DNA from: Pseudomonas hamedanensis
GTDB lineage: Bacteria > Pseudomonadota > Gammaproteobacteria > Pseudomonadales > Pseudomonadaceae
Reading direction: 5' to 3'
Length of the DNA: 64,000 bases
NCBI RefSeq assembly: GCF_014268595.2
Contig: NZ_CP077091.1
Span: forward strand, 1,510,501-1,574,500
Numbering within the stretch: position 1 is the first letter of the stretch; every line of letters begins with the position of its first letter. The notes beneath the pieces are model-generated. The model made no database searches. It was given only the letters and a program-made list of their open reading frames with translations, and was not told the DNA's origin. Positions 6,303-46,606 of this stretch are shown here, piece after piece. The position numbers were made by a program, and so were the translations under genes.

Positions 6303-6315
6303 GTTTCCTCCTGAA

Positions 6316-13014: not shown

Positions 13015-13047
13015 GAAGCCCCCTGTTGGCAAAAAGTGAATCGATGA

Positions 13048-17462: not shown

Positions 17463-20400
17463 TCAGGAGAGCACTTCACTGGCAGGCTCGGTGAGCCCTT
17501 CGTGCCACCACGCGGCGAAACTGAATACGTTGGGCGCCTTGAGCAGGGTGAAATGATTGCCCGGCCCGTACCACACCGTCAGATCCGTCACCTCCCTTCG
17601 CCAGCCCTCGACCATCGCCGCTTGCTCTCGCTGATTACCGGCCGCATCCAGCGTCGGGTCGTCGACCAGCGCCAGGCGCACCGGGCCGCTGTAGCGCTGG
17701 TGCGGCTGATAGACCGTGCGCAAGGCGCTGGCAAAAGTGCGAGTCGAACCGATTAGCGACTGTGGCGTAGACCGTGCCGACAGCACGCCCGCACGCACCA
17801 TGCCCGCGTGCAGCAAACCCAGTTGCGTGGCGTCATCGGCGTCGGCGAACGCCTCGGCATCGATGCCCAGCGAAGTACCGGCCGACAGTTGCAGCGCCTC
17901 GATCAGCCGTTGCAGCGCCGCGGTCGCGGTGTAGGCTCTGCCGATCACGCCGTTGCCGCCGGGCGACTCGCTGTCAATCAGGGTCAACGTTGCCACCTCA
18001 CGTCCGTCGGCCTCAAACTGCGCAGCCATGGCATGCGCTACCCAACCGCCGAACGAGTGCCCGATCAGGTGCAGCGGACCCTGCGGGTAGAGTTGCTCGA
18101 TTGCCCGCCGGTAAAAAAGCGCTGCCGCCTCGACTTGACTGTGCGGCACCGCCCCACCTTCCAGCCCGCGCGGTTGCAGGCCGTGAATCGGCCATTGAGG
18201 GCCGAGGGCCTCGGTCAAATGAATGAACCCGGTGACGCTGTCGCCGGCCCCCGGCACGCAGAAAATCGGCGCCCGTGAGCTGTCGCCCGTCTGAATGGTC
18301 ACCAGCGGTTGGTAGCCAGGCAATGCCGGCGCCTGCGCCGCTTCCAGTGCCTGGCTGATCGCCTGACCCAGCGCTTGGATATGCGGGGCCTTCATCATGC
18401 TCTGGTGGTCGCCCGGCACGTCGATGCAGCGCAGCTCGCTATCCGGCAGCTCTTCGGCCCACCCCAGGGTCGGGCTGAGCTGCGCCATCGCCGCCGAGCG
18501 TTGTTTCGCACGGAACACATGCAGCGGCAGAGGCAACGGACTGACCCGGTAATGTGCCAGCGCATGCCCATGCGCCACCTCGCGATCCAGGTAATGCCAG
18601 GCCTCTGCCGCCGAAGCTGCCGCCAACTCAGGGTGCAGCAATTGCTGGCGCTGGCAACGTTCGAGCAGCTCGGCGAACGCCAGCGATTCCAGTTCGGACT
18701 GCAACGCTGCAAGCGCGGCGAGCCTGCCCTGCCCGTCTTCGCCAAGACCGGCCCAGTGCGCGCTGCAATGCAAGAGCAATTGACGCTTGTGCACGTGCGC
18801 ATCGTTCCAGCGTGCCTTGTGCGGATCGGCCAGACGCGGCACATAGCTGTCAATCAGCCCGATAAACTCGACAATTTCGTCCAGTCCGAGCAACTGCTGA
18901 GCGACCTCATAAGCCAGTACACCACCAAACGACCAACCGGCCAGTCGGTAAGGCCCATGCGGTTGTCGGGTGCGAATGATCCCGACCATGCGCCTCGCCA
19001 GGCATTCGAGCGTGCGCAACTGTGTTTGGCCGTAGTCGATGCCCGGCAGCCCGTAGATAGGAAAAGCGCCGCCGATGTGCCGGCCCAGCGCCGGAAAATA
19101 CACGTCGCGGCCACTGAATTCGTGGACTAGAAACAATGGCGTGCCCTGATCACCCGCGCGCACCAGCGTCAGCCCCGGCTCAGGCTCCGGCGCACCCCCG
19201 CCATCACGTTCAGCGAGCAGCGCAGCGGCCGCTTCAACGCTGGGATGCTGGAACAGCTCGGCCAGGGTCATGGGGAGATCGGCCTGCTGCATCTGGTTGA
19301 CCAGACGCACCGCCAGCAACGAATGCCCGCCCAGCTCGAAAAAGTTGTCGTGGCGACCGACCTGCTCGACCTGGAGGATTTCGCCCCACAACCCGGCGAG
19401 ACGGGTTTCAAGTGCATTGCCCGGCGCCTCGTACACACGGCTGAGCAACGCCGCCTGCGTCGGTGCCGGCAAGGCCTTGCGATCGACCTTGCCATTGTTG
19501 TTCAGCGGCAACATCTCCAGACGCACCCACGCCGAGGGCACCATGTATTCCGGCAGCCGTGCCTGCAACAAGGCGCGCAGCGTGGCGCTTTGCAGGTCGG
19601 CATCGTCGGCAGTGAAATAGGCCACCAGCCGCGTCGGCTCCGTACCGTCACGCCGCGCCAGCACAATGGCCTCCTTGACGCCGGGGCAACCGAGCAGACG
19701 GTTTTCGATCTCGCCCAGCTCAATACGGAATCCGCGAATTTTCACCTGATCATCGTTGCGACCGATGCACTCAAGCTGCCCGGGGGCCAGCCAGCGCACC
19801 AGGTCACCGGTGCGATACATCAGCGCGTCGGGCTGTGTGCTGAACGGGTCGCGCAGGAACTTCTGCGCCGTCAGTTCAGGCCGGTTCAGATACCCCAGGG
19901 CCACGCCCTGCCCGCCAATGTACAACTCACCCGTGACGCCGAACGGCACCGGTTGCTGACAGGCGTCGAGCACATACACCTGCGTATTGGAAATCGGCCC
20001 GCCGATCGACACGCTGTCGGCCTCTTCGGCGACAGTCTGCACGGCAAACGTGGTGGCGTAAGTGGTGGTTTCCGTCGGGCCATAACAGTGCACCAGACGC
20101 ACGTTCGGTGCCTCGCTGCGCAACTTGCGAAACGCCGCCGGATCGCCGCGCTCACCGCCACAAAGCAGGATGCGCAAACCCTTCAAGGCGTCGGGAATCA
20201 GCTGCACATACTGGTTGAACAGCGCTGTGGTGACGAACAGGATGCTCGCGCCGCTGCGCTTGAGTTCGTCGCCGAACGCTTGCGGATCGAGCAAGGTGGC
20301 ATGGTCAATGATCGCCACACGTGCGCCATTGAGCAGTGCGCCCCAGACGTCCATGGTGCTCGCATCGAAGGCCGGGTTGGAGGCGAACGCTATACAATCC

Positions 20401-23400
20401 TGGCGGTTGAAATCGGCGTAGCCGTTGTTGATCACAAGCCGCGTGATCGCCCGGTGCGGCACCATCACGCCTTTTGGCATGCCGGTGGAGCCGGAGGTGT
20501 ACATGATGTATGCCAGCGACTGCGCCGATTGCGGCAGATCCGGGTTATGACCGGGCTGGGCGTCGAGCTGCAGCGAGTCGAGGTCGATCCGCCGCACCGC
20601 AAAAGCCACCGTGGCTGTGCTGCGGGTCAGCAGCGCAGCGGCCCGGCAATCGTCGACCATGAACGACTGGCGATCGGCCGGCGCGTGAATATCCAGCGGC
20701 ACCCAGGCCGCCGCGCATTTGCCGATCGCCAGCTGCGCGATCAGCAGGTCCAGCGAGCGCGGTAACAGGATCGCCACCGCATCGCCGGGCTTCACGCCTT
20801 CACTCAGCAGAAAATGAGCCAGTTGATTGGCCCGGCGGTTCAGCTCGGCATAGCTCAAGGTCTGTTCGCCATGTACCGCTGCGACGGCGTCGGGCTGTCG
20901 CGCGGCGTATTGTTCGAACAACCGCTGTACCGTGTCGGTGTGTGGGTATTCGCGATCGGTCGCATTGAAATCCACCAGCAAGCGCTGACGCTCCTCGTCC
21001 TGCACCAGCGGCACGTGGGCGAGCAGCGCCTGATCGTTGCTGACCATCGCTTGTAACAGCTGCTGCAGATAGCCGGCAAAACGCTGCACGGTGGCTTCAT
21101 CGAACAGCGCGGTGGCGTATTCCAGCCAGCCGCCAATGCCTTCCGGGGTCTCGCCGAGGGTCAGGGTCAGGTCGAACTTGGCAAAATGACTGGGCTCGGC
21201 CACGGCTTCCAGCGTCAGCTCGCCCAAGGCCAGCGCCGGTCCGTCGCTGTTGCGCCAGTTGAACATGCTCTGGAACAGCGGGCTGTGCGCCAGGCTGCGC
21301 ACCGGACGGGTAATTTCCACCACTTGTTCGAAGGGCAGGTCCTGATGCGCCTGCGCTTGCAGGGTAATCGCCTTGACCCGCGTCAGCAGCGCTTGGCCAT
21401 TCAACTCGCCAGCGGTGTCGATGCGCAATGCCAGGGTGTTGACGAACAGGCCGATCATCCCCTCGACTTCGGCGCGGTTACGGTTGGCGACCGGCGATCC
21501 GATGACCACATCGGTTTGCCCGGACAAGCGCCCCAACAGCAGCGCCCACGCGCCGAGCAGCGTCATGTACAACGTCACGCCGTGGCGCTGGCTCAAGGCC
21601 TTGAGTCCGGCGCCCAAACGCGCATCCAGTTGCAGCGCAATGCTGCTGCCGGCGTAATCCTGCTGCGCCGGGCGCGGGCGATCCGTCGGCAAGGTCAGCA
21701 AGGCCGGCACATCACGCAGGGTGCGCTGCCAGTATTCGCTCTGGCGCTGCAACACCTCGCCGCTCAACCAGCGCCGCTGCCACACCGCATAGTCGCTGTA
21801 TTGCAGGGTCAACGGCGGTAACGGGTCGTCTTCACCCTGACTGAACGCCTGATACAGCGCCATCAGTTCGCGGGTCAGCACGCCCATCGACCAGCCGTCA
21901 GAGATGATGTGGTGCAAGGTCAGCAGCAGCACATGGTGATCGTCGGCCAGGCGTACCAGCCGTCCGCGGATCAACGGATCGTCAAGCAGGTCGAATGGTC
22001 CTGAGGCCTCGCCCTGAATCAATGCCTGCAACGCCTCCTGCGCCTGCGGATGGTGGCGCAGATCTTCGAGACGAAGCACAAGACCACTGTCGACCGGAGC
22101 AATCAGCACCTGCGCGTCGCCATCGAGCGGCGCGAAGCGGCTGCGCAGCGTTTCGTGGCGCGCGACGATGCGGGCCAGTGCGCGTTGCAGGGCAACGTCG
22201 TCCAGGGCGCCGCGCAAGCGCAGGGCAATCGGGATGTTATAGGCGGTGTTGGCACCCTCCATCTGCGCCAGAAACCAGAAGCGCTGCTGGGAAAACGACA
22301 GCGGCAGCGCGGTGTCACGGGGCACCGGCAGAATCGGTGGTTGCGTGCAGCGCCCGGCTTCGGTCAACACCTGCGCCACTGCTGCCAGCTCGGCGTTGGC
22401 AAACAGATCGCTGAGCACCAGCTCGACGCCCAGGCGCTGCCTGACGTGCGCGACCATGCGCATGGCCAGCAGCGAATGCCCGCCCAGTTCAAAGAAATGA
22501 TCCTCGCGCCCTACCCGCTCGACCTGCAGCACGTCGGCCCAGATGTCGGCCAGCGCCGTTTCCACTTCGCCCTCCGGCGCCACATAGTCGCGGACGAACA
22601 GCGCCGAGCGCTCGGGTTTCGGCAGGGCTTTGCGGTCGAGCTTGCCGTTGGCCGTGAGCGGCAATCCGTCGAGTTTGACGAAAGCGGACGGCACCATGTA
22701 TTCCGGCAACTGGGTCAGCAGCAGCGCGCGCAGCTGCGCCACGTCCAGCGCCTGCACTTGCGCCTGCTCGGTGAAATACGCCACCAGCCGCGACTGCCCC
22801 GGCTGATCCTCGCGGGCCAGCACTACCGCTTCCTGAATCCCGGGCAACTGGTTGAGGCGCTGCTCGATTTCGCCCGGCTCGATGCGTACGCCGCGAATCT
22901 TCACCTGGTCGTCATTGCGCCCCAGATATTCGAGCGTGCCGTCGCTGCGCCAGCGCGCCAGATCGCCGGAGCGGTACATGCGCGCCTGTGCGGCGTGGCT
23001 GAACGGATCGCAGAGGAAGCGTTCGGCAGTGAGCTGCGGCTGGTTCAGATACCCACGGGCCACGCCGCTGCCGCCAATGTACAACTCGCCGGCGACGCCA
23101 ATCGGCACCGGCCGCTGTTGCGCATCGAGCAGGTACACCGTGGCATTGCTCACCGGTTTGCCAATGTGCAAGGCGTCGCCGCTGTCGATACGCCCGGAGG
23201 TGGCGACCACGGTGGTTTCGGTCGGGCCGTAATTGTTGATCACGTCGAAACGCTGGTTGCGCGAGTACTGCCGCAAGCGGTCGCCGCCGATCAGCAGCGT
23301 GCGCAAGGTCGGATGTTCCAGCTGTTGGCTGAACGCGTATTCGGCCACTGGCGTGGGCAGGAAGCTCACGTCCAGCGGTTGCGCGCGCCACCAGTCAAGC

Positions 23401-25769
23401 AAGGCGTCGATGTCTTCACTGCCGTCGTGCGCCGGCGCGATGTGCAGGGTCGCGCCCACGCACAACGCCGGCCAGACTTCCCAGGCCATGGCATCGAAGC
23501 CAAATCCGGCGAGGCTTGAGGTGTGGCGGCCAGCACACAAATCAAAGGCTGAGCAGTGCCAATCGATCAGGTTCGACAAGGTGCGGTGTTCGACCATGAC
23601 GCCCTTGGGCAACCCGGTGGAGCCAGAGGTATAGATCACGTAAGCGAGATGCGCGGCATTGAGACTCGGCAATTGCGGATTACCGGTGATGCCCACCGGC
23701 CAGGTCCGCGGGTCCAGATTGAGCACTGGCACGGCCAGCATCGGCAGGCGTTCGCGCAGCTCGGTGCTGGTCAACACGGCCACGGGTGCACTGTCGCGCA
23801 GCAGATGCAGCAGGCGTTCGGCCGGGTGCGCCGTATCGACCGGCACGTAACCGGCGCCGGCCTTGAGAATCGCCAGCAGCCCGACCAGAGCCTCCAGCCC
23901 GCGTCGGGCAACGATGGCGACGCGGTCATCCGGCTGCACGCCCAGACCGATCAACTGATGCGCCAGGGCGTTGGCCTTGTGGTTCAACTCGGCAAAGGTC
24001 AGCGCCTCGCCCCCATGAACGGCCGCCAGCGCCTCCGGACGAGCCAGCACCTGCGCTTCGAAACGCTGATGAACGGGCAGCGCCGCCGGGTAATCGACCT
24101 GGCTGGCGTTGAATTCGCGCAACACTTGCTCACGCTCTGCGGCCGGCAGCACTGACAACTGATTCAGCGGCGTATCGGGCGCCTGTTCGAGCGCCGATAA
24201 CAATTGCTCCACCGCACACAACAGGTAGTCGCAGAGACGTCCACCATCGACGGCGCTACTGGCCAGCAACGTCAGGCTGAACCGGTCGCCGAAGTCGTCG
24301 ATGCTCAGGGTCAGCGGGTAATTGGTGCGTTCTTCCGAGCGCAACACACTGATGCCTTCCCACGCGGCGAGTGCTTCGTCGCTGGCAGCGGCACTGGAGG
24401 CGCTGTGTCGATAATTGAGCAGCGTGCTGAACAACGGCGAAGAAGCGACCACACCGCTGCAGCGTTGCGCCAGCGCCAGCGGCGCATGTTCATGACGCAT
24501 CAAGGTAGTCAGCCGCGCGTGGGTGGCCTTGACCGCCTCAACGACGGCGAGCGCTGCGATGTCCACACGCAACGGCAACGTGTTGATGAAGATGCCCAGC
24601 GCGCGTTCGGTGCCTTCGGCATTCTGCATGCGCCCCATCAACACGGTGCCGAAGACCACGCTCACTTGCCCGGTCAGGGCATTGAGCACTTGCCCCCAAC
24701 CGAGGTGAAACAGGCTCGCCACGCTCACGCCCAGCCGCCGCGCCAGGGCCCGCAGGCGGCGATTGAGTTGCGGGTCGAGCGCCTGGCTGAATTCGACGAC
24801 GTCGCTGCCGTCACCGTGCACGCCTTGCAATCCGTAGGGCAAGGTCGGCTCGTCGATGTCAGCGAGCATGTCGCGGAAAAACGCTTCGTGTTCCGCCTCG
24901 CTGATGCCCAATCGGGCTTGCGCCACATAATTGCGAAACGGCACGGGCGGGCCCAACCGCGCGGCGTGTCCGCACAGGCAGGCCTGCAATTCCTCGCTGA
25001 CCACCGCCAGGGCCGAGTGGTCCATCGCCAGGTGATGGAACAACAGCATCGCGACGATGCGTTGCCCGCTCACATCCCGGGCATGCGCCAGGCGCAACAG
25101 CGGCGCACGGGTCACGTCGAGACGGAACTGCCTGGCGTCGAAACGGGCGTGCAACTGTGCCAGGGCATCACCGCCATCGGCTTCCAGAGTCACTTCTTCC
25201 AGCGGCAGGCGCGCACCGCGCATGACCACTTGCAGCGGTGTGTCGAGACCTTCCCAGACCACCGCCGTGCGCAGGATGTCGTGACGATCGATCACCGTTT
25301 GTAACGCATCGACAAATGCCTGCAAACGCTCTGCCCCGCTGAAAGCGAATTGAGCCTGCATGACATACGGATCGCCGTGTTGGGCGCTGACGTGGTGATA
25401 AAGAATGCCTTCCTGCAATGGCGTTAACGGATAGATGTCTTGCACGTTCGCAGCCCCGCCGGGGATGCCTTCGATCAGGTGATCGAGGGCGTCCTGACTC
25501 AGTTGCGTCAGGGTCAGCATCGCCGGGGTGATGTGCGTGCAACCAGGGCCGATGCCATTGGCCGGCACTTCGACCTGCCCGACACGCGCCGCCGAATACT
25601 CGCCGGCCTTGATCAACTCGATCAACGCCGCCTTGTGCTCGCGCAACGACGCCAGTAGCGCCGGATCGCTCAAGGCCTGCTTGTTGCCATTGACGCGCAA
25701 CTGCTCGTCCGTGACCGTCAACTGGATGTCTCGGGCCTTGAGTGTCGCCAACAAAGGGTTCAGGTTCAC
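17463..25769 (-). CDS. Lipopeptide NRPS C: modules 7-8 plus tandem thioesterases
   Basis: 2768 aa, order C-A-T-C-A-T-TE-TE. C7 has the dual condensation/epimerisation signature YHHVSAQHGDP and core HHLAMDH (HH at 245-246). A7 (FDAMAWEVW, D759) reads DAWFLGNVV, predicting Leu. T7 serine is 1099. C8 is different: HHIISDG (1286-1287), an LCL type joining two L residues. A8 (FDASTMDVW, D1802) reads DAMFLGCTY, predicting Ile or Val. T8 serine is 2150. TE1 has GWSFGG (S2280) and TE2 GHSFGG (S2572). Tandem TEs end most Pseudomonas cyclic lipopeptide lines and release the chain as a lactone. The start is GTG, overlapping the stop of NRPS B in GTGA. Confidence 0.93.
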   Translation of the reverse strand: MNLNPLLATLKARDIQLTVTDEQLRVNGNKQALSDPALLASLREHKAALIELIKAGEYSAARVGQVEVPANGIGPGCTHITPAMLTLTQLSQDALDHLIEGIPGGAANVQDIYPLTPLQEGILYHHVSAQHGDPYVMQAQFAFSGAERLQAFVDALQTVIDRHDILRTAVVWEGLDTPLQVVMRGARLPLEEVTLEADGGDALAQLHARFDARQFRLDVTRAPLLRLAHARDVSGQRIVAMLLFHHLAMDHSALAVVSEELQACLCGHAARLGPPVPFRNYVAQARLGISEAEHEAFFRDMLADIDEPTLPYGLQGVHGDGSDVVEFSQALDPQLNRRLRALARRLGVSVASLFHLGWGQVLNALTGQVSVVFGTVLMGRMQNAEGTERALGIFINTLPLRVDIAALAVVEAVKATHARLTTLMRHEHAPLALAQRCSGVVASSPLFSTLLNYRHSASSAAASDEALAAWEGISVLRSEERTNYPLTLSIDDFGDRFSLTLLASSAVDGGRLCDYLLCAVEQLLSALEQAPDTPLNQLSVLPAAEREQVLREFNASQVDYPAALPVHQRFEAQVLARPEALAAVHGGEALTFAELNHKANALAHQLIGLGVQPDDRVAIVARRGLEALVGLLAILKAGAGYVPVDTAHPAERLLHLLRDSAPVAVLTSTELRERLPMLAVPVLNLDPRTWPVGITGNPQLPSLNAAHLAYVIYTSGSTGLPKGVMVEHRTLSNLIDWHCSAFDLCAGRHTSSLAGFGFDAMAWEVWPALCVGATLHIAPAHDGSEDIDALLDWWRAQPLDVSFLPTPVAEYAFSQQLEHPTLRTLLIGGDRLRQYSRNQRFDVINNYGPTETTVVATSGRIDSGDALHIGKPVSNATVYLLDAQQRPVPIGVAGELYIGGSGVARGYLNQPQLTAERFLCDPFSHAAQARMYRSGDLARWRSDGTLEYLGRNDDQVKIRGVRIEPGEIEQRLNQLPGIQEAVVLAREDQPGQSRLVAYFTEQAQVQALDVAQLRALLLTQLPEYMVPSAFVKLDGLPLTANGKLDRKALPKPERSALFVRDYVAPEGEVETALADIWADVLQVERVGREDHFFELGGHSLLAMRMVAHVRQRLGVELVLSDLFANAELAAVAQVLTEAGRCTQPPILPVPRDTALPLSFSQQRFWFLAQMEGANTAYNIPIALRLRGALDDVALQRALARIVARHETLRSRFAPLDGDAQVLIAPVDSGLVLRLEDLRHHPQAQEALQALIQGEASGPFDLLDDPLIRGRLVRLADDHHVLLLTLHHIISDGWSMGVLTRELMALYQAFSQGEDDPLPPLTLQYSDYAVWQRRWLSGEVLQRQSEYWQRTLRDVPALLTLPTDRPRPAQQDYAGSSIALQLDARLGAGLKALSQRHGVTLYMTLLGAWALLLGRLSGQTDVVIGSPVANRNRAEVEGMIGLFVNTLALRIDTAGELNGQALLTRVKAITLQAQAHQDLPFEQVVEITRPVRSLAHSPLFQSMFNWRNSDGPALALGELTLEAVAEPSHFAKFDLTLTLGETPEGIGGWLEYATALFDEATVQRFAGYLQQLLQAMVSNDQALLAHVPLVQDEERQRLLVDFNATDREYPHTDTVQRLFEQYAARQPDAVAAVHGEQTLSYAELNRRANQLAHFLLSEGVKPGDAVAILLPRSLDLLIAQLAIGKCAAAWVPLDIHAPADRQSFMVDDCRAAALLTRSTATVAFAVRRIDLDSLQLDAQPGHNPDLPQSAQSLAYIMYTSGSTGMPKGVMVPHRAITRLVINNGYADFNRQDCIAFASNPAFDASTMDVWGALLNGARVAIIDHATLLDPQAFGDELKRSGASILFVTTALFNQYVQLIPDALKGLRILLCGGERGDPAAFRKLRSEAPNVRLVHCYGPTETTTYATTFAVQTVAEEADSVSIGGPISNTQVYVLDACQQPVPFGVTGELYIGGQGVALGYLNRPELTAQKFLRDPFSTQPDALMYRTGDLVRWLAPGQLECIGRNDDQVKIRGFRIELGEIENRLLGCPGVKEAIVLARRDGTEPTRLVAYFTADDADLQSATLRALLQARLPEYMVPSAWVRLEMLPLNNNGKVDRKALPAPTQAALLSRVYEAPGNALETRLAGLWGEILQVEQVGRHDNFFELGGHSLLAVRLVNQMQQADLPMTLAELFQHPSVEAAAALLAERDGGGAPEPEPGLTLVRAGDQGTPLFLVHEFSGRDVYFPALGRHIGGAFPIYGLPGIDYGQTQLRTLECLARRMVGIIRTRQPHGPYRLAGWSFGGVLAYEVAQQLLGLDEIVEFIGLIDSYVPRLADPHKARWNDAHVHKRQLLLHCSAHWAGLGEDGQGRLAALAALQSELESLAFAELLERCQRQQLLHPELAAASAAEAWHYLDREVAHGHALAHYRVSPLPLPLHVFRAKQRSAAMAQLSPTLGWAEELPDSELRCIDVPGDHQSMMKAPHIQALGQAISQALEAAQAPALPGYQPLVTIQTGDSSRAPIFCVPGAGDSVTGFIHLTEALGPQWPIHGLQPRGLEGGAVPHSQVEAAALFYRRAIEQLYPQGPLHLIGHSFGGWVAHAMAAQFEADGREVATLTLIDSESPGGNGVIGRAYTATAALQRLIEALQLSAGTSLGIDAEAFADADDATQLGLLHAGMVRAGVLSARSTPQSLIGSTRTFASALRTVYQPHQRYSGPVRLALVDDPTLDAAGNQREQAAMVEGWRREVTDLTVWYGPGNHFTLLKAPNVFSFAAWWHEGLTEPASEVLS

Positions 25770-37700: not shown

Positions 37701-38728
37701 AACGCCAGGTGCATGACACTCGCCACGCTTACGCCCAATTGCCGCGCCTGCTCGCGCAGTGCCTGGCTCAGGGCGCCGTCGAGCATCAATGAGGCTTCTT
37801 CGATCGAGTGCCCGTCGCCCTGCACGTCCCGTAACCCGCAAGGCAGTGTCGGCTCGTCGATATCGGCAAGCATTTCGCGAAAGAACGCCTCGTGGGCCGG
37901 CTCGTTCGCCCCCAGCCGCGCCCGCGCCAGGTGATCGCGATACGGCACCGCTGGAGCCACCTGCACGGTCTGCCCGAGCAAAAACGCCTGCGTCTCGCGG
38001 CGCACCACGTCCAGGGCGAGGTGATCCATGATCAGGTGATGAAACAGCAACAACGCGACCACACGGCCGTTGTCTGGATCGTTGGCGAACACCAGACGCA
38101 ACAGCGGCGCTTGCTGGACATCGAGACGGAAATGTTGCGGATCATGGCGGTGCAACAGTTGCTCGAGCACGTCACCCGTGCCGCTCGGATCGAGTTCTTC
38201 GCAGTGCAACGAAGCCTTGCGCTGGACCACTTGCAGCGGCTCGTCCAGGCGCTTCCAGATAAACGAAGTGCGCAGAATGTCGTGGCGGCCAATCATCCAT
38301 TGCAACGCGTCGGCGAAGGCTTGCAGACGCTCGCGGCTGTCAAAGGCGAAGCGTGCTTGCGACACGTACGGATCGCCCGCTGGTGCCGACAAATGCAGGT
38401 AGAGCATGCCCTCCTGCAGCGGCGCCAAGGGGTAGATGTCCTGCAGGTTCGCCGCACCGCCCGGCACGCCGGCGACGATGCGGTCGAGGGTGGGTTGATC
38501 CAGCGTCACCAGCGGCAGCATGTCCGGGGTGATGCGAAAGGCCGGACTCAGCCAGTCACCGTTGTGCCGGGCGACCAGCTCAAGCAGTTGCGCCTTGTGG
38601 GTGGCGAGGCTGTCCCACAACGCATCGTCCAGCGCGTCGTCACTGCCCAGAATGACCAGGTCTTCATCTTCCTGTTGAAGGCGGATCGCATGGGTGGAAA
38701 TAACTGCCATCAGTTCGCTGAAATGCAT
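25766..38728 (-). CDS. Lipopeptide NRPS B: modules 3-6
   Basis: 4320 aa from the ATG at 38728 (MHFSELMAVISTH); the frame also offers a GTG 12 codons earlier. Four C-A-T modules, with phosphopantetheine serines at 1095, 2154, 3213 and 4278 (all FELGGHSLLAV). Pocket residues: A3 (FDFSVWEIW) DFWNIGMVH, a textbook Thr code; A4 and A5 (FDAMAWEVW) DAWFLGNVV, Leu; A6 (FDVSVWEFF) DVWHMSLVD, Ser. All four C domains resemble dual C/E domains with HHxxxDH cores. C4 and C5 carry the upstream HH-x-x-x-x-x-GD motif; in C3 the first His is Leu, and in C6 GD is ND. No stand-alone E domain and no TE. It ends on a T domain, so chain transfer to NRPS C is in trans. Confidence 0.93.
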   Translation of the reverse strand: MHFSELMAVISTHAIRLQQEDEDLVILGSDDALDDALWDSLATHKAQLLELVARHNGDWLSPAFRITPDMLPLVTLDQPTLDRIVAGVPGGAANLQDIYPLAPLQEGMLYLHLSAPAGDPYVSQARFAFDSRERLQAFADALQWMIGRHDILRTSFIWKRLDEPLQVVQRKASLHCEELDPSGTGDVLEQLLHRHDPQHFRLDVQQAPLLRLVFANDPDNGRVVALLLFHHLIMDHLALDVVRRETQAFLLGQTVQVAPAVPYRDHLARARLGANEPAHEAFFREMLADIDEPTLPCGLRDVQGDGHSIEEASLMLDGALSQALREQARQLGVSVASVMHLALARVLGQLSGRTAVVFGTVLLGRMAAGEGGEDALGMFINTLPLRVDVGADDVRAGVLLTHRRLTALLGHEQASLALAQRCSAVAVPTPLFSAILNYRHSSVDEVAEIIDIAPGVQVLGARERTNYPLTVNIDDLGEDLRITALADIRLGAQRIADYLQTTLRGLVEALQTGAPTPLHSIGILPASEREHLLYGVNAPLAHFADTPLIHRQFEAHAQARPDATALIFDEQTLSYGELNRRANQLAHHLLALGIRPDQRVAICVERGPQMIVGLLGVLKAGAAYVPIDPAYPQERIAFTLQDSAPVAVLIQAATGTCVGASEVPQIDLDSPQLRAESEGNPHVAGLTSAHLAYVIYTSGSTGLPKGVMVEHRNVARLFSATADWFQFNEQDVGALFHSFAFDFSVWEIWAALAFGGQLLLVPQTVSRSPDECYALLCRSGVTVLNQTPSAFRQLVAAQGRSALQHSLREVIFGGEALEPGLLKPWFARVGNAGTRLVNMYGITETTVHVTYRPLQAADAQLVGVSPIGGRIPDLQLYVLDAQCEPVPVGVTGELYVGGAGVARGYLNRPELSAERFIRNPFSTTADARLYKTGDLARWAADGSLDYLGRNDDQVKIRGFRIELGEIQARLSACNGVREAVVIAREDSPGDPRLVAYWIADDEEPSVAQLRDTLLGSLADYMVPSAFVRLDALPLTANGKLDRKALPPPDSDAFARRGFEAPQGAIEHLIADIWQRLLGVEQVGRHDNFFELGGHSLLAVKLIERMRQHDLQCDVRVLFGQPSVAALAATLGATPSYVVPANRIEPGCTSITPDKLPLADLDQAGIDTVLASVPGGVANVQDIYALAPLQAGILYHHLATHAGDPYVLQAQFAFAGLAQIKTFVRALNSVIARHDILRTSVVWEGLEEPVQVVWREAPLTLERVDADGLAGDVLEQMQARFDPRHYRLDLKSAPLMRFAYTEDRANQRWVGILLMHHIVLDHTALEVLVTEMSDLMHGQTKDLLPAVQYRNYVAQARAGADDAAHAAFFRDMLGDISEPTLAFGVQDVLGDGSAVVDSELTVDEGLGQRLRALSRRLGLSIASLVHQAWAQVLAQVSGQQEVVFGTVLLGRLQGGEGADRALGMFINTLPLRVSVAAESVQDSVRATHDRLAQLLGHEQASLSLAQRCSGVAATLPLFSTLLNYRHSQPDAASVKWDGIEILCSRERSNYPLVVSVDDMGDGFLLNVQAVPQVDGMRVCDYLQTALHSLVTALEHTPTLPVEQLSIVSPGERHKVLFAFNDTAQPFPPAQTVQRLVEAQALANPQAWAAVQGEQRLSYAELNQRANRLAHHLIALGVQPDDRVAVCLRRSPQMLVALLAILKAGAAYVPVDPAYPRERIAYLLQDSDPVAVLAEASTRTLLGTVPLIDLDSDRWAQLSARNPQLPALTPAHLAYVIYTSGSTGQPKGVMVEHRTLENLVHWHAAAFDLRAGSHTASIAGFGFDAMAWEVWPALCVGATVHLPPAAIANEHLDELLEWWRAQPLQVSFLPTPVAEYAFSRELGHPTLRTLLIGGDKLRQFPGNPTFDVINNYGPTEATVVSTSGRIEAGQVLHIGRPIANGTVYLLDSRQQPVPVGVPGELYVGGAGVARGYLNRPALTAEMFLQDPFSDEPHGRLYRTGDVARWRADGTLEYLGRNDDQVKLRGVRIEPGEIEAALRTHSGVQDVVVLVRDGRLLAWFSERRAVDIADLRDHLQSRLPEALIPAAYVRVDAMPLTANGKLDRKALPEPDQSAWLSHEYAAPQGPLETALAQIWSDLLKVGQVGRHDNFFELGGHSLLAVSLIERLRQLGLSADVRVLFSQPTLAALAAAMGSGREIAVPANRIPRDCRYISADMLSLSELDQASVDCIVATVPGGAANVQEIYPLAPLQEGILYHHISAGAGDPYLLQSSLAFADIHRLHAFANALQMVIARHDILRTSVVWEGLPSPQQVVWRHAPLALEAVALASADGDVLAQLQARFVARQWRLDLGQAPLMRLVYADDPVNKRVVALLMFHHIALDHTALEVVREEMHATLLGHTEPLPAAAPYRNYVAQARHGASEQEHETFFREMLGDIDEPTLPFGLREVAGDGRDIESHVSTLPLELSQRLRAQARSFGVSAASLFHLAWAQVLAVTAGQPRVVFGSVLLGRMQGGEGADRALGMFINTLPLRVEVAEHGVGAALRDVHQRLAALLGHEHASLALAQRCSAVAAPSPLFSSVLNYRHSAARQTAEAAWQGIEFLAHDGRSHYPLTLSINDLGEGFDLAVLTPGEVGAQRVCELMQCALTALVSALEENPGQALNRLAILPPLERQRVLTQFNASATAFPPAQTVHRLFEAQVLLNPEAVAVQAGEQQLTYAQLDQQANRLAHYLLELGVRPDARVAISTRRGQHMLLAMLAVLKAGAAYVPIDPAHPAERIAYLLADSAPLALLVSGVDPGTVEVPVIDLGDERWHDLPEHSPEVEGLTADNLAYVIYTSGSTGQPKGVMVEHRTLENLVRWHAAAFDLRSGSHTASIAGFGFDAMAWEVWPALCVGATVHLPPAAIGNEHLDELLEWWRAQPLQVSFLPTPVAEYAFSRELSHPTLRTLLIGGDKLRQFPRNQTFDVINNYGPTEATVVATSGRIECGQPLHIGRPIANAKVYVLDAQQNPLPVGVKGELYVAGAGVARGYLNRDELTAERFLADPFSQEPGARMYRTGDLARWRTDGTLEYLGRNDDQVKLRGVRVELGEIEAALASHPALQEAVAQVRDGQLLAWFTARAPLDLDDLREHLQMRLPQALLPAAYVRLDSLPLTANGKLDRQALPEPEQNAWLSRQYEAPRGSVETALAQIWSEVLKVEQVGRHDNFFELGGHSLLAVSVIERMRQIDLSTDVRVLFDQPTLAALAAAVGSGREIVVPANGIAADCDHITPDMLSLLELDQATLDRIVATVPGGAANVQDIYPLAPLQEGILYHHITAAQNDPYVLHSRLMFASVERVEAFARALRQVMARHDILRTAIVWQGLTVPVQVVWREAQLPVEEVAFEQLTVDNLDLTEAPLIRLLYARDPATGQVAGLLLFHHIALDHTALEVVREEMQISLGGEQRSLPVPVPYRNYVAQARLGASEAEHEAFFRDMLGDVDEPTLPFGLREVNAGSGTCEEASLALPDALTQRLRAQARHMGISVASVFHLAWAQVLGATSGQDRVVFGTVLMGRMQGGAGADRGLGMFINTLPLRVDLGAQPVRAALRATHGQLTGLLAHEHASLALAQRCSRIAAPAPLFSAMLNYRHGSATPTQAHPAWQGIETLSSEERTNYPLTLNVDDLGTGFRLTAMTLAQVGALRICTYMEAALQALVGALEQAPQQPVNQLSVLPDAERQRLLFDFNATAVDYNLQQTLHGLFEAQVLRTPHAPALQMADQRLDFQQLNERANRLAHHLIGLGVQADARVAICVERSVAMVVGLLAILKAGGAYVPLDPDYPAERIAYMLADSAPVAVLVQGSTAARASALAVPVINLEHDSWHDLPADNPQVPGLTSAHLAYVIYTSGSTGQPKGVANEHRAVVNRLLWMQDAYALSAVDTVLQKTPFSFDVSVWEFFWPLMTGARLLLARPGGHKEPAYLSELIEREHITTVHFVPSMLDVFLAHGQTERCAALRQVMCSGEALPGSLVRRFKQQLPASQLHNLYGPTEAAVDVTAWSCAGPLQDTPDNTPIGKPIANTRMYILDAQQQPVPQGVVGELYIGGVQVARGYLNRAELSAERFLSDPFSQQAQARLYRTGDIARYRADGHIEYLGRNDDQVKIRGLRIELGEIQAGLTGIDGVHEAAVLAREDVPGDKRLVAYYTGLRLDIDILRAALLHALPDYMVPATFVHLERLPLSPNGKLDRKALPAPNQDSLNKRPYEAPVGEVEITLARLWGELLNVERVGRHDHFFELGGHSLLAVSLVGRLQQEGLEADVRALFEQPTLAGYAAITERMEIVL

Positions 38729-38920
38729 GGGGTAACCTGCTGTAAAGACGAGAAAAAGGCACACGCTGCAGCGAGTCCGTGCACGCGGCGCGCAGCCCGG
38801 AAAAGCTAAAACATCGGCGCGGTGCTGGCTGACATGGGAAGCCGGGACAAGCCCTGCTCTGGACAGCAGCGCAGACGCTTCTGCGGGCGCGCACCGGCCC
38901 CCGCAGATGCGTTTGGAGGG
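38729..38920 (-). other. Gap between NRPS A and NRPS B
   Basis: 192 bases, GC-rich after the NRPS A stop and more mixed near NRPS B, with CAGGTTA before the ATG at 38728. No T-run terminator was seen, so read-through from NRPS A is likely; an internal promoter cannot be excluded. The gap contrasts with the 4-base overlap between NRPS B and C. Confidence 0.4.
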
Positions 38921-41900
38921 TCAGAGCCGACGCTTGCGGTTGAGCTGCGGAATCGTGGTCGGCGCGATGTCGACCGTGTGCGTTTGCCGCGAGGTCTGCG
39001 CCGCCAGTGCCGCCAGCGTCGGCTGACTGAACAGCGTGCGCGCATCGACATGCAGGCCGGCCTGACGCATGCGCGCCACCAGGCTCACGGCGAGCAACGA
39101 ATGCCCGCCCAACTCGAAGAAGTTGTCGTTGCGCCCGACCTGATCAATGCCCAGCGTCTCGGCCCAGACCCGCGCCACGGCCTGTTCGATGTCGCCCTCG
39201 GGCGGCACGTAAGCGCGGCTGAGCAAGTGCTCGGCGCCGGGCGCCGGCAACGCCTTGCGGTCGATTTTGTCGTTGGGCGTCAGTGGCATCGCTGCAAGCC
39301 GCACGAATGCGGCCGGGACCATGTACTCCGGCAATTGCTGCAAGACCTGCTCACGCAGGTCTTCGATGCGCGGCGCAGCGTGACCGTCGCGCACGGTGAA
39401 GTACGCCACCAGGCGCTCGTCGCGCACCAGCACCAGCGCTTCGCGCACGGCGCCATGTTCAATCAGCCGGGCTTCGATTTCCCCCGGTTCCAGGCGCAGG
39501 CCGCGCAGCTTCAACTGGAAATCGCTGCGACCGAGAAATTCGAGATTGCCGTCCGCCTGGTAGCGCACCCGATCACCGCTGCGATACAAGCGATCACCAG
39601 CCACGAACGGGCTGTCAATGAAGCGTTCAGCCTGTATCTGCGGCAATCGGTGATAGCCACGCGCGACGCCTGCGCCGCCGATGTGCAGCTCGCCGCTGAC
39701 ACCCAACGGCACTGGCTGATCGTTGCCGTCAAGGATATACAGCCGCGTATTGCCCAGTGCCTTGCCGATCGGTACGACGCGTTCGGGCACCGGCTCATGA
39801 GGCTCCAACGTCCAGGCACTGCTGTCGACCGTGGTTTCGGTCGGGCCGTAAACGTTGTGCAGGCGCACCCACGGTAAGCGTTCGCGCACCGCACGGGCCA
39901 GCGCGACGGTCAGGTCGCCACCACCACAGAACACGTCGGTGAGGCTGATGCAGGCACTGACATCGTCCTGCTCGAGGAATTGCTGCAATAGCGCCGGGAC
40001 GAACTTGACCACGCTGATGCGCTGTTCGCGTATCACTTGCGTGACGTAAGCCGAATCGCGGTTGCCATCAGGACGCGCCAGCACCAGCCGCAAGCCAGCG
40101 CTCAACGGCCAGAAAATCTCCCACACCGAGCTGTCGAAGCTGAACGGCGCCTTTTGCAACAGCGCGCCGTCTGCGGTCGGCGGTCGAATCTGCGAGCCCC
40201 AGTGCATGAGGTTGCAAACACTGCGGTGTTCAATCATCACGCCCTTGGGCGTCCCCGTGGAGCCTGACGTGTAGATCATGTAAGCCAGGTTCGACGCATT
40301 CAGGCCCGGCACTTGCAGGTTGCCGCTCGGCGCGTCGTCCCAGGTGCTGCGGTTGAAGTCGACCACGGTAGCATCCGTGTCACCTAGCAAATTGCGAGTC
40401 GCCGCGTGCAGCAGCACCGCCACCGGAGCGCTGTCGCGCAACATGAATTGCAGACGCGCCAGCGGATAGTCCGGGTCCAGCGGCACATAGGCGCCACCGG
40501 CCTTGAGAATCGCCAGCAAGCCGATTACCAGCTCAAGACTGCGCTCGACACAGATCGCCACCCGGTCATCCGGTTGCACGCCTTGTTCGCGCAGGTGATG
40601 GGCCAGGCGGTTCGCCTGTTCATTGAGTTGTCGCCAGGTCAGTTGCGCGTCGCCGGCCTGCAACGCAATCGCATCCGGCTGACGTTGCACCTGCCGTTCG
40701 AACAACACGTGGAGCGGCTGCTCGAGCGGACATTCGACTTCGGTTGCGTTGAAGTGGGTCAGCAACTGCTCTCGTTCTGTCGGCGACAGAATCGGTAGTC
40801 GGTTCACCGGCAGATCCGAGTCCTGTTCCAGGGCGTCAACCAGCCCGCTCACGGCCATCTGCATGTACCCGCCAATCCGTTGCGCGCCGATGTGGGGCAG
40901 CGCCCTGGCAGTCAGTTGCAAGCCATCACCGAAATCGTCGACGCTCAAGGTCAGCGGGTAATTGGTGCGTTCTTCGTTGGCCAGGGTTTCGATGCCTTGC
41001 CAGTCCGGCCCTTCGGCATTGCCGTTTTGACGGTCGCTGTGCCGATAGTTGAGCAGCACGCTGAACAGCGGAGTCGGCGCCGCCACGTCACTACAGCGCT
41101 GGGCCAGAGCCAGCGAGGCGTGTTCGTGCCCGAGCAATCCGGTCAGGCGCTGGTGGGTGGCCTGCACGGCGATTAGCGCAGTCGCAGCGACATCGACCCG
41201 CAAGGGCAAGGAGTTGATGAACACGCCCAGTGCGCGGTCGGCGCCCTCGCCGCCCTGCATGCGCCCCATTAACACCGTGCCAAACACCACCCGCTCACGC
41301 CCCGACGTGGCCGCCAGCACCCGCGCCCAGGCCAGGTGAATCAGGCTCGCCACGCTGACGCCGAGCCGACGCGCCTGCTGGCGCAGACGACCGTCCAGTT
41401 CGGCAGCCAGTGGTTGCTGCGACTCCTCGATACCGCGGCCATCGCCTTGTACATCGTGCAGACCGAACGGCAGCGTCGGCTCATCGATATCGCCGAGCAT
41501 CTCGCGAAAAAAGCCTTCATGCTCCGTCTCGCTGACGCCAAGCCGCGCTTGCGCCACATAGTTGCGGTACGGCACCGCTGGCGGCAACGGCTCGCACTGC
41601 CCGGCAAGGCTGGCGGACAGTTCGGCGCGCAGTACTTCAAGCGCAATGTGATCCATCGCCAAGTGATGGAACAGCAACACACCGACCATCCGCCCCTTGC
41701 CCGGATCGCGGGCAAACAGCAAGCGCAGCAGCGGTGCCTGGCTGACGTCGAGGCGATAGCGGCGCGCGTCAAACCGTCGATGCAATTGATCGAGAACGTC
41801 ACCCTGGGCGGGGTCAATCCTGACCTCCTGTACCGGCAGTTCGACTTGGCGCAGAACCACCTGCACCGGCGTGACCAGCCCCTCCCAGACCACGGCAGTG

Positions 41901-44900
41901 CGCAGGATATCGTGTCGGGCCATGGCCTGACGCAATGCATCGGCAAAGGCTTCGACACGCTCCAGACTGTCGAAGGCGAGGTGCGATTGCAGCAAGTACG
42001 GATCGCCCTGCGTGGCGGTGATGTGGTGGTACAGAATGCCGTCCTGCAACGGTGCCAGCGGATAGATATCCTGCACGTTGGCGGCACCACCGGGCACGCT
42101 GGCAACCACGCGGTCGAGAGTGGCCTGATCCAGCTCGACCAGCGACAGCATGTCGGGGCTGATCGCGGTGCAACCGTCCGGAATGCGATTGGCCGGCACG
42201 TCGACTTCGCGCCCGCTGCCAACGGCCGCCGCCAGTGCGGCCAGGGTCGGCTGGCCGAACAACACCCGCACGTCACAACTCATGCCGAGCTGGCGCATAC
42301 GCTCGATCAAATTGACCGCCAGCAGCGAGTGCCCACCGAGTTCAAAGAAATGGTCGTGGCGGCCGATCCGCGTTACCTGCAACACCTCGGCCCAGATCTG
42401 TGCCAACGCCGTTTCGACGTCGCCCTGCGGCGGCGCATAGTCACGGCGAATCAAGGCGTCCGGGCCCGGCGCCGGCAAGGCCTTGCGGTCGAGTTTGCCG
42501 TTGGCAGTCAGCGGCAGCGTCGTCAACCGCACGTAGGCCTGCGGCAACATGGCACTGGCCAGGCGTACTTGCAGATAAGCGTGCAACTCGACGATGTCCA
42601 CGGGCCGGCGTTCGCTGAACCACGCCAACAACTGCCCATCACGCGCCAGCACCACCGCCTCCCGGACGGCGTCGTGGCTGCTCAGTACAGCCTCGACTTC
42701 GCCCGGCTCGACACGCACGCCACGGATTTTTACTTGATCATCACTGCGCCCCAGATATTCCAGCGTGCCGTCGTGCTGCCAGCGTACCCGATCACCAGTG
42801 CGATACAGACGCGCCTCGGGCACCTCGCTGAACGGGTCGCGCAGGAAGCGTTCGGCGCTGAGGTCTGCGCGGTTCAGGTAACCGCGGGCGATACCGGCGC
42901 CGCCAATGTACAGCTCACCGGCGATACCGATGGGCAGCGGTCGCTGCTGTTCGTCGAGGACGTGCACCGTTGCGTTGCTCACCGGTTTGCCGATATGCAG
43001 CGTACGGCCGACCTCTAATTTGCCGGAGGTCGCGACCACGCTGGCCTCGGTCGGACCGTAGTTGTTGATCACCTCGAACGATTGCGCGCGGTTGAACTGG
43101 CGCAGGCGATCGCCGCCGATCAACAGCGTGCGCAGGGTCGGATGGTCGAGCTGGCGGCTGAACGCATATTCGGCGATGGGTGTCGGCAGAAAACTCACGT
43201 CCAGCGGTTGCGCCCGCCACCACGCCAGCAGTGCGTCGATGTCTTCGCCGCCGTCCTGGGCCGGGGCCAGGTGCAGGGTCGCGCCCGCGCACAGGGCCGG
43301 CCAGACCTCCCAGGCCATCGCGTCAAAGCCGAATCCGGCCAGGCTTGAGGTGTGCTGGCCTGGGCCGACGCTGAAGGCCTGACAATGCCAGTCGAGCAGA
43401 TTACCCAACGCTCGGTGTTCGACCATCACGCCTTTGGGCACGCCCGTGGAACCGGACGTGTAAATCACATAGGCGAGGTTCGCCACGGTCAACCCCGCCA
43501 CCACAGGATCGGCGTCGGTGTCGGTCGGCCAGTCGCGACGATCCAGCTCAATCACCGGTACTTGCAGCAACGGCAAGCGGGCGCGCAAATCGCTTTGCGT
43601 CAGCACAGCCAGCGGTGCGCAGTCTGTGAGGAGATAGCTCAAGCGCTCGCTCGGGTGAGCCGGGTCGACCGGCACATAAGCCGCGCCAGCCTTGAGTACC
43701 GCGAGCAGTCCGGTCAGGGTATCGAGGCCACGCCGGGCGACGACGGCAACGCGATCATCGGGCTGAACTCCGAGCGCAATCAGATGCCGGGCGAGAAAAT
43801 TGGCTTGGCTGTTGAGTTGGCCATAGGTCAGTTGCTGCCCTTGATAAAGGGCAGCAATGGCGTCGGGCCGCTGCGCTGCTTGCGCGGTAAAGCGCTGGGC
43901 AATCGTCTGGTCTTGCGGGAAGTCCGCCTGCGTGGCGTTCCACTGCTGTAACTGACTCGATTCATCCGCGGTGTTCAGGCAGAACTCCGCCGTCGTCAGC
44001 GCGGGCTGCTCCAGCCCCTGCTCGAGAATCGGCAGCAAGCGGGCGCCCAGCGCTTCGACTTCGGCGGCGTCAAAGTATGCTTGATCGTAAACTAGATGCA
44101 GCCAGGCCTGATCGTTGAAGCGATTGCTGCGAAGGTGAACCGCCAGCGGTGTCGCTTCATGACCATTGGAGACTTTGACGGTGTGTGCCGAGGCCGCGCC
44201 ATAACGGTAATCGTGGTCGTCCTGCTCGTAGGACACCGAGACTTCGAACAGTTGGGCGCGGTCTTCGCGCAGCAGACCCAGCGCACGATTCATCTCACTC
44301 AGGGAAAAACGCTGATGGCGCAGATCCTGTTTCAGCTCAGCCGCGATGGACCGCACAAGGTCTGCAAACGGCAACTCGCGAGCGAAGCACAAGCGCACGG
44401 CGCTGACTTGAGCGAACAAGCCGAGGGTGGTTTTAAAGCGCGCACCCGAGCGATTGAGCAACGGCAAGCCCACCACCCATTCGTCACGCTGCGCGGTGCG
44501 GCTGAAATACACATGCAACGCCGCCAGCAACACGTGGAACGCCGAAGCGCCAAACTGTCGCGCCGACTGTCGCATGCGCTGGTGCAGCAATGCAGGCAAC
44601 GCTTGCACATAAGCCTGTGACGGTCGCGCCCCTTGACTGGAACGCTCACGATGACGCGGTAACAACAGCGGCTCCGGCTGCGAACGGTACTTGTCGAGCC
44701 AGTAGGCGCGATCACGGGTGTATCGCTCCGAGGCCTGATAACGCGCATCGTCGTGAATGAATTCGACGTAGGATGGCGGCGAAATCAGCGGTGATTGCCC
44801 CTGACTCAGCGCGCTGTAGATGTCGCCCAGGGACTTGAGCATTTGCCCGAAACCCCAGCCGTCCAGAATCAAATGATGGGCCTGAGTCGCCAGCCAATGG

Positions 44901-45340
44901 CGGTGGCTGTCCAGACGAATCAGACAGAAGCGGAACAGCGGCTGGCCTTCCAGCGGATAAGCCTGCGCCATCTGCTGTTGCACCAGCGCTTGCGCGGCTG
45001 TTCGCGCATCGGCGTGCACGGAAAAATCAAACAGCGGCATCGCCACCGGCATTGTCGGGGCGAATCGCTGGCGGGGCATGCCTTGCGTATCAGCCCCCGG
45101 CAGCAGGACAGTGCGTAACGCGTCGTGGTTGGCAACCAGACACTCGAGCGCCGCGTGCATCACGGTCTTATCCAGCGGGCCGCACAGTTCGACATAACCG
45201 CCAATGTTGTACAGCGGCGAGTCGCCACGGCTCAACTGGTCCAGCCAGATGTCCCGTTGGGCGGCGGTCAGCGGAAAAGTTTCGCAAGGCACGGACAGAT
45301 CGTCCGCCGCGTAAGCAGAAGTTGACTGCATAAGATCCAT
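38921..45340 (-). CDS. Lipopeptide NRPS A: starter C domain and modules 1-2
   Basis: 2139 aa, order C-A-T-C-A-T. The first C domain (HHLILDG, 155-161) is a starter type that attaches a fatty acyl chain to residue 1. A1 (FDAMAWEVW) reads DAWFLGNVV, Leu. T1 serine is 1005. C2 (YHHITATQGDP, core HHLAMDH) is a dual C/E domain. A2 (FDSSVWEIF) reads DSWKFGVVD, probably Glu, less surely Gln or Asp. T2 serine is 2081; the protein ends soon after it. A second ATG three codons downstream (MQSTSAYAA) has GAG/GGA closer to a normal ribosome-binding distance and may be the true start. NRPS B begins 192 bases further on. Confidence 0.92.
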   Translation of the reverse strand: MDLMQSTSAYAADDLSVPCETFPLTAAQRDIWLDQLSRGDSPLYNIGGYVELCGPLDKTVMHAALECLVANHDALRTVLLPGADTQGMPRQRFAPTMPVAMPLFDFSVHADARTAAQALVQQQMAQAYPLEGQPLFRFCLIRLDSHRHWLATQAHHLILDGWGFGQMLKSLGDIYSALSQGQSPLISPPSYVEFIHDDARYQASERYTRDRAYWLDKYRSQPEPLLLPRHRERSSQGARPSQAYVQALPALLHQRMRQSARQFGASAFHVLLAALHVYFSRTAQRDEWVVGLPLLNRSGARFKTTLGLFAQVSAVRLCFARELPFADLVRSIAAELKQDLRHQRFSLSEMNRALGLLREDRAQLFEVSVSYEQDDHDYRYGAASAHTVKVSNGHEATPLAVHLRSNRFNDQAWLHLVYDQAYFDAAEVEALGARLLPILEQGLEQPALTTAEFCLNTADESSQLQQWNATQADFPQDQTIAQRFTAQAAQRPDAIAALYQGQQLTYGQLNSQANFLARHLIALGVQPDDRVAVVARRGLDTLTGLLAVLKAGAAYVPVDPAHPSERLSYLLTDCAPLAVLTQSDLRARLPLLQVPVIELDRRDWPTDTDADPVVAGLTVANLAYVIYTSGSTGVPKGVMVEHRALGNLLDWHCQAFSVGPGQHTSSLAGFGFDAMAWEVWPALCAGATLHLAPAQDGGEDIDALLAWWRAQPLDVSFLPTPIAEYAFSRQLDHPTLRTLLIGGDRLRQFNRAQSFEVINNYGPTEASVVATSGKLEVGRTLHIGKPVSNATVHVLDEQQRPLPIGIAGELYIGGAGIARGYLNRADLSAERFLRDPFSEVPEARLYRTGDRVRWQHDGTLEYLGRSDDQVKIRGVRVEPGEVEAVLSSHDAVREAVVLARDGQLLAWFSERRPVDIVELHAYLQVRLASAMLPQAYVRLTTLPLTANGKLDRKALPAPGPDALIRRDYAPPQGDVETALAQIWAEVLQVTRIGRHDHFFELGGHSLLAVNLIERMRQLGMSCDVRVLFGQPTLAALAAAVGSGREVDVPANRIPDGCTAISPDMLSLVELDQATLDRVVASVPGGAANVQDIYPLAPLQDGILYHHITATQGDPYLLQSHLAFDSLERVEAFADALRQAMARHDILRTAVVWEGLVTPVQVVLRQVELPVQEVRIDPAQGDVLDQLHRRFDARRYRLDVSQAPLLRLLFARDPGKGRMVGVLLFHHLAMDHIALEVLRAELSASLAGQCEPLPPAVPYRNYVAQARLGVSETEHEGFFREMLGDIDEPTLPFGLHDVQGDGRGIEESQQPLAAELDGRLRQQARRLGVSVASLIHLAWARVLAATSGRERVVFGTVLMGRMQGGEGADRALGVFINSLPLRVDVAATALIAVQATHQRLTGLLGHEHASLALAQRCSDVAAPTPLFSVLLNYRHSDRQNGNAEGPDWQGIETLANEERTNYPLTLSVDDFGDGLQLTARALPHIGAQRIGGYMQMAVSGLVDALEQDSDLPVNRLPILSPTEREQLLTHFNATEVECPLEQPLHVLFERQVQRQPDAIALQAGDAQLTWRQLNEQANRLAHHLREQGVQPDDRVAICVERSLELVIGLLAILKAGGAYVPLDPDYPLARLQFMLRDSAPVAVLLHAATRNLLGDTDATVVDFNRSTWDDAPSGNLQVPGLNASNLAYMIYTSGSTGTPKGVMIEHRSVCNLMHWGSQIRPPTADGALLQKAPFSFDSSVWEIFWPLSAGLRLVLARPDGNRDSAYVTQVIREQRISVVKFVPALLQQFLEQDDVSACISLTDVFCGGGDLTVALARAVRERLPWVRLHNVYGPTETTVDSSAWTLEPHEPVPERVVPIGKALGNTRLYILDGNDQPVPLGVSGELHIGGAGVARGYHRLPQIQAERFIDSPFVAGDRLYRSGDRVRYQADGNLEFLGRSDFQLKLRGLRLEPGEIEARLIEHGAVREALVLVRDERLVAYFTVRDGHAAPRIEDLREQVLQQLPEYMVPAAFVRLAAMPLTPNDKIDRKALPAPGAEHLLSRAYVPPEGDIEQAVARVWAETLGIDQVGRNDNFFELGGHSLLAVSLVARMRQAGLHVDARTLFSQPTLAALAAQTSRQTHTVDIAPTTIPQLNRKRRL

Positions 45341-45811: not shown

Positions 45812-46606
45812 ATGAATCTGACCGGCAGTATTCGCAACATGGAAAACCCGCATTTTTATTGGCAACTTGGAGAGCTGATAGCCAGCACCGGCGACGATCA
45901 CTTCGCCAGCAACATGTTCCAGTTGGTCGACACTTTGGTGCCGGTCAACCGCCTCGATCTCAGCGAGTGGACGCTGGATGAGCGCCAGGCGAGCGTAGTG
46001 GAGATCAAACCGCTGGGCAGCGCAGGTCTGCCGCAAGCCGGCGCCAGCCATGCCACGCTGGAGCGGCCCGACGATCATCCGCTGTTGCAGAAGATGATCG
46101 AGATGAACGATTCATTGCTGATTCAATTGAAAGCTTCACTGTTGCCGCGTCATCCGCAGCACTGCGTGCATCAATGCAATCTGGTGTCGCGCACCTCCAA
46201 TCGCCGCTGCGTCATCTCGGTTTATCGCCCGCATACGCAGCGGGTGTTCTCCCTGCCGGAGCTGGCGTTTCTGAAAAGCTTGTCCGACACCCTGCTGCCG
46301 CTGATCGAGCGCCATGCGCAGATGACCCGGCAAAACCTCGCCCGCCAGCCACGCCCGCCGCTGGCCGAGCGGGATCAGGCACCGCTGGCGCAAGTCTTCG
46401 ATGAACGCCTGGCATTGAGTAACATCGTCCTCTCGGCCCGCGAGAAGGAAGTCTGCCTGGGCCTGCTGACCGGCGGCACCGTGCCGCAGATGGCGGAAAA
46501 GCTGCGGGTCAAGAACAGCTCCATCGAAACCTATCTCAAGCGTGCCGCCGCCAAGCTGGGCGTCAGTGGGCGGCATGGCTTGGCGAAATGGATGGCCGGG
46601 GCTTGA
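45812..46606 (+). CDS. LuxR-type transcriptional regulator upstream of the NRPS genes
   Basis: 264 aa; GAGAAGGAT stands before the ATG. The C-terminal 60 residues form a LuxR helix-turn-helix ([46 protein letters not shown]), close to that of the other cluster regulator, including a shared SGRHxLxKWM end. The N-terminal domain ([18 protein letters not shown]) also matches the other, so the two are paralogues. Such proteins activate lipopeptide synthesis in several Pseudomonas. It is divergent from NRPS A and overlaps the outer membrane channel gene by 19 bases. Confidence 0.87.

Follow-up and report, generated by a model that had tools for sequence, protein, structure and literature searches.

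The locus examined here raises the question of which lipopeptide is made by three adjacent NRPS genes of Pseudomonas hamedanensis, and whether that compound has already been described. In the window, i.e., the whole stretch of 64,000 nucleotides that was analysed, these genes, together with neighbouring genes for regulation and export, would in all likelihood constitute the assembly line of MDN-0066, a small, soap-like cyclic lipopeptide known from soil Pseudomonas. Judging from its sequence, the cluster is very probably orthologous to a lipopeptide synthetase that has been characterised.

The three genes are located on the reverse strand and are termed NRPS A (38921..45340), NRPS B (25766..38764), and NRPS C (17463..25769), with reading frames open over 2139, 4332, and 2768 codons, respectively. 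Pfam analysis directly gave two condensation (C), two adenylation (A), and two T domains in NRPS A, four of each in NRPS B, and two of each in NRPS C together with two thioesterase (TE) stretches. Scored over whole proteins, the A and C families had E-values of 6e-113 to 0, and chance is excluded as the source of these matches. On the basis of Pfam and the pocket codes, and also the C-domain types for NRPS A, the order was read as starter C-A(Leu1)-T and dual C/E-A(Glu2)-T in NRPS A; four dual C/E-A-T modules (Thr3, Leu4, Leu5, and Ser6) in NRPS B; and a TubC-type docking domain, dual C/E-A(Leu7)-T, and LCL-A(Ile8)-T-TE-TE in NRPS C. The eight A-T pairs over three genes (2+4+2) reported in the first-pass annotation were confirmed by Pfam, which found eight each of the C, A, and T domains, and the tandem TEs that it had described were borne out by the two thioesterase stretches and by the motifs GWSFG (TE1; 18924..18938, reverse strand, residue 2278 of NRPS C) and GHSFG (TE2; 18048..18062, reverse strand, residue 2570 of NRPS C). 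At the junction of the last two genes, the start of NRPS C overlaps the stop of NRPS B. Because the 99%-identical relatives of the first and second proteins measure 2136 and 4320 aa, respectively, the starts are probably near 45331 for NRPS A and 38728 for NRPS B, rather than 45340 and 38764. The genome as a whole has 24 condensation domains, of which 8 belong to this cluster, 12 lie at 1.94-1.97 Mb, and 4 at 4.67-4.68 Mb; the latter 16 are presumably those of siderophore synthetases.

A lipo-starter C domain, a tandem TE, and eight modules spread over three genes (2+4+2) characterise the bananamide family (8:6) and are all present here. The module count and the family (Bananamide, 8 residues) proposed in the first-pass annotation, which had placed the locus in an eight-residue bananamide/MDN-0066/prosekin-like group, both held. 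The neighbouring genes fit the same family, as the cluster is contiguous between LuxR/NodT genes and MacA/MacB/LuxR genes, an arrangement expected of its members. Upstream of NRPS A, a divergent LuxR-type regulator gene (45812..46606, forward strand; GerE Pfam match) is followed by that of a NodT/PleC-type outer-membrane channel (46588..48033, forward strand; two OEP Pfam stretches). On the other side are genes for a MacA/PleA-type periplasmic adaptor of the exporter (16248..17396, reverse strand; HlyD_3 and HlyD_D23 Pfam matches), a MacB/PleB-type exporter ATPase-permease (14287..16245, reverse strand; MacB_PCD, ABC_tran, and FtsX), and, downstream of the cluster, a second LuxR-type regulator (13511..14260, forward strand; GerE Pfam match). 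According to PMC6891508, BW11P2 and COW3 have bananamide clusters with the same gene order as seen here. The best relatives of PleB, 94% identical, were found in Pseudomonas among 298 genomes sampled, 104 of which had a match at an E-value of 1e-250 or better. A pattern scan of 45200-46000 gave no promoter-like site and one terminator-like site, which is within chance. In the window, an Rfam search at gathering scores gave zero matches and a tRNA scan found none. NRPS A showed short NRPS matches in seven plasmid records, none covering 80%, and a plasmid kinship was dropped.

Two other features of the window were observed outside the cluster. The region 10864-11415 encodes a small ClpP-like protein (Pfam CLP_protease) whose matches to phage head-maturation proteases were weak and below the cut-off; Pfam does not identify its neighbours at 8561-10306 and 12085-13032 as phage genes. 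At 5358-7686, a methyltransferase-like ORF overlaps a same-strand ORF for a haem-oxygenase-like iron enzyme (Haem_oxygenas_2) by 44 bases, and the pair is possibly a small operon.

The types of the C domains were examined with a maximum likelihood tree of 57 rows, which held C domains of 380-640 residues and in which the row numbers of some references start from the first domain caught. The first C domain of the window grouped with six other first-module C domains, in agreement with the starter C domain claimed in the first-pass annotation; the last was placed beside seven further LCL-type domains, and the remaining six all fell within one branch of 42 rows. The branch names starter, LCL, and dual C/E are our assignments, based on where the domains sit in named systems and on known motifs. 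The window would accordingly be read as one lipo-starter C, six dual C/E, and one LCL domain. This row matches that published for P. azadiae SWRI103, an MDN-0066 producer (PMC9431178). The N-terminal dual motif was present in modules 2, 4, 5, 6 (as NDPY), and 7, and module 3 had LH for HH. The LH form was also found in 8 of the 19 other B proteins examined (B1M1-15, N40, H1h, BW11P2, P0272, P0273, P0271, and the near-identical P0257), a survey in which B20 and paraglycinae yielded no pattern match. LH in module 3 and NDPY in module 6 were rejected as marks of idle epimerisation, since the LH carriers differ in their products and since the idle epimerisation domain published for SWRI103 is that of module 5, where Leu4 is in the L form despite a C/E domain (PMC9431178). 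The module-5 C domain of the window has an ordinary HHxxxxGDPY-like motif.

Homology was compared next to the pocket codes. Among the best 120 of 1420 matches, the first protein was 99% identical to P0001, 88% to that of Pseudomonas sp. MPB26 (P0018), 87% to P0025 (P. granadensis label, 2136 aa), 86% to that of P. moraviensis (P0028), 74-75% to those of bananamide strains, and 66% to that of P. prosekii. NRPS B was 99% identical to P0257, the 4320-aa protein of Pseudomonas sp. SWRI81, 98% to the SWRI99 protein, 90% to that of RIT-PI-o, and 88% to P0272 (P. granadensis label); NRPS C was 99% identical to P0124 (SWRI81) and 90% to P0139 (RIT-PI-o). At this level of identity, the host probably shares a species with SWRI81 and SWRI99. 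These two strains have been grouped with SWRI65 as one new species of the Koreensis subgroup (PMC7463772); the type strain of P. hamedanensis is SWRI65 (PMC8401041). None of the 120 matches listed for NRPS C is a C protein labelled P. granadensis, and the comparison of modules 7-8 therefore rests on other strains.

The nine pocket positions were taken from MAFFT alignments and placed by motif; the A domains used did not include those at the start of four C genes, which were truncated, or module 5 of COW3, which was lost at a contig break. The codes read directly for modules 1-4 were DAWSLGNVV, DSWKFGVVD, DFWNIGMVH, and DAWSLGNVV, and those for modules 5-8 were DAWSLGNVV, DVWHMSLVD, DAWSLGNVV, and DAMFLGCTY. 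They follow the family pattern Leu-Asp/Glu-Thr-Leu-Leu-Ser/Gln-Leu/Ile-Ile/Val. The codes of modules 1-6 were identical to those of P0025 and P0272, both labelled P. granadensis, and the codes of modules 3-8 to those of Pseudomonas sp. RIT-PI-o (P0271 and P0139). P0273, labelled only Pseudomonas, also carries codes matching the window.

The assignment of residue 2 is less direct. The module-2 A domain (A2; 39650..40702, reverse strand, Pfam residues 1547-1897) is Asp/Glu-ambiguous and was read as Glu, and its code, DSWKFGVVD, is intermediate between Asp and Glu codes. In COW3, BW11P2, and HKI0770 (anikasin), which incorporate Asp, the A2 code is DSWKLGVVD. DGWKFGVVD or DGWKLGVVD is found in FD6 (orfamide type), P. 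lactis, and P. poae, taken here to be Glu-incorporating on the basis of their family. P. prosekii, whose peptide prosekin has Glu2 (PMC8788793), carries DGWKVGVVD. With 47 of the 120 matches listed set aside for other lengths, 73 A-type proteins of 2040-2150 aa were compared; DSWKFGVVD was found in four, namely P0001, P0018, P0025, and P0028, all 86-99% identical to the first protein of the window, and the Asp-type DSWKLGVVD was found in 42. No close copy of A2 was present among 194 genomes sampled, in which the best match besides the window's own was 79% identical. Because Ser236 in the window pocket is the letter of the Asp-activating relatives, the code alone cannot settle Glu2. The sequence Leu-Glu-Thr-Leu-Leu-Ser-Leu-Ile predicted in the first-pass annotation stood, but its Glu2 was not derivable from pocket residues alone.

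An Asp2 product of the bananamide D-F type, also known, is quite improbable. In addition to the shared Ser236, it is favoured by the closest A2 domains outside the clade, which are Asp-type at 78-80% identity, and by the Asp-type A2 code of N40(2020), whereas the residue called 299 is Phe in the window and Leu in those Asp domains. Moreover, the same code occurs in P0025, labelled P. granadensis, and the MDN-0066 of this species was reported to contain Glu by NMR and MS/MS (PMC4445906). The Marfey amino-acid analysis in that original paper nonetheless lists D-Asp (PMC4445906), which is probably a slip. For the SWRI103 cluster of P. azadiae, Asp2 was likewise predicted and Glu2 was found by NMR (PMC9431178). 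Glu2 thus appears to be the better call, through kinship with the characterised clade and not through the code alone. These codes may suggest a rule for A2 in which Ser236 with Leu299 would specify Asp, and Gly236, or Ser236 with Phe299, would specify Glu; DSWKFGVVD is a possible, testable explanation for the published Asp prediction where NMR gave Glu, with the A2 code of SWRI103 itself lying outside the comparison. If A domains were relaxed, a mixture might be formed (Asp/Glu at 2, Ile/Val at 8) in which MDN-0066 would be one congener. This is compatible with the MDN-0066 reading and is considered unlikely: both kinds of relaxed choice are described in related families, A2 of the related stechlisin system accepts both Asp and Glu (PMC9948697), and bananamide G has Val8 (PMC8788793, PMC6891508), but only one lipopeptide-containing fraction was obtained from the P. 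azadiae producer (PMC9431178).

Prosekin (Leu-Glu-Thr-Leu-Leu-Ser-Ile-Ile) is equal in size and shares Glu2 and Ser6 (PMC8788793), but the code of module 7 here, DAWSLGNVV, is a Leu code and differs from the Ile code found in module 8, and the A protein of P. prosekii shares just 66% identity and differs in its A2 code. Prosekin was rejected as an extremely improbable product by the module-7 Leu code and the low identity, in a code comparison that did not include the P. prosekii module-7 domain. A viscosin-, poaeamide-, or orfamide-type product was rejected on module number, since viscosin family peptides have nine residues (PMC8788793), corresponding to nine modules, and the window has eight A domains; it is also countered by the first protein, which shares 61-63% identity with its counterparts in P. 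lactis, P. poae, and P. protegens. A reading considered distinctly unlikely has the locus as a divergent offshoot of the MDN-0066 clade, belonging to a species that the literature searched does not connect with this lipopeptide, and potentially yielding a new congener such as an Asp2/Glu2 mixture, a peptide with another fatty acid, or one with altered epimerisation at Leu4 or Leu5. The literature search, with supplementary tables outside its reach, found no paper joining P. hamedanensis with MDN-0066.

MDN-0066 is the preferred product. Its structure is 3R-OH C10:0-D-Leu-D-Glu-D-aThr-L-Leu-D-Leu-D-Ser-L-Leu-L-Ile, and the SWRI103 peptide matched to it has a mass of 1053.67 Da (PMC9431178). By analogy with the relatives, the starter C domain would acylate Leu1, the eight modules would work in order across the three proteins, the dual C/E domains would set the D residues, and the last LCL domain would keep Leu7 in the L form. 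Thr3 as the putative lactone residue agrees with the published 6-residue macrocycle of the family (PMC8788793, PMC6891508). TE1 probably cyclises the peptide and TE2 probably supports the line, as assigned for COW3 (PMC6891508); the fatty acid would be that of the relatives, export would proceed via PleA, PleB, and the NodT channel, and control would be exerted by the two LuxR regulators. The predicted sequence is already described as MDN-0066 (PMC8788793 Table 2), a point left undecided in the first-pass annotation, and Asp2 with the same fatty acid would give bananamide F (PMC8788793); the compound is thus known whichever residue, Glu or Asp, is at position 2. The finding is sound but ordinary. 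The pocket residues, read blind, led to a real compound, and a candidate MDN-0066 producer lineage is added.

Comparison with known systems places the cluster as follows. The prosekin synthetase of P. prosekii likewise corresponds to eight residues with Glu2 and Ser6, but its product has Ile7 and the identities are 66% (A) and 69% (B). The BW11P2 synthetase (P. bananamidigenes, bananamide A-C) likewise has eight modules in the same gene order, but differs in its Asp2 and Gln6 codes, with 75.5% identity over three proteins. COW3 (P. botevensis, bananamide D-G) shares the eight modules, Ser6, and gene order, and differs in the Asp2 code DSWKLGVVD; the identities are 74.4, 78.4 (over 2980 of 4332 residues), and 79.8%. 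For LMG 27940 against COW3, the published range is 74-79% (PMC6891508). Among the seven clusters compared, that of N40(2020) is the closest named one outside the clade. It also has eight modules and Ser6 and is 80.8% identical over three proteins, but has the Asp-type A2 code DSWKLGVVD; it has been termed a divergent COW3-type cluster (PMC9948697). At 87% (A) and 88% (B) identity to the proteins labelled P. granadensis, the window probably represents another species. The MDN-0066 synthetase of P. granadensis and P. azadiae SWRI103 has identical predicted residues, with identical codes for modules 1-6 in the P. granadensis-labelled proteins and the same C-domain row in SWRI103.
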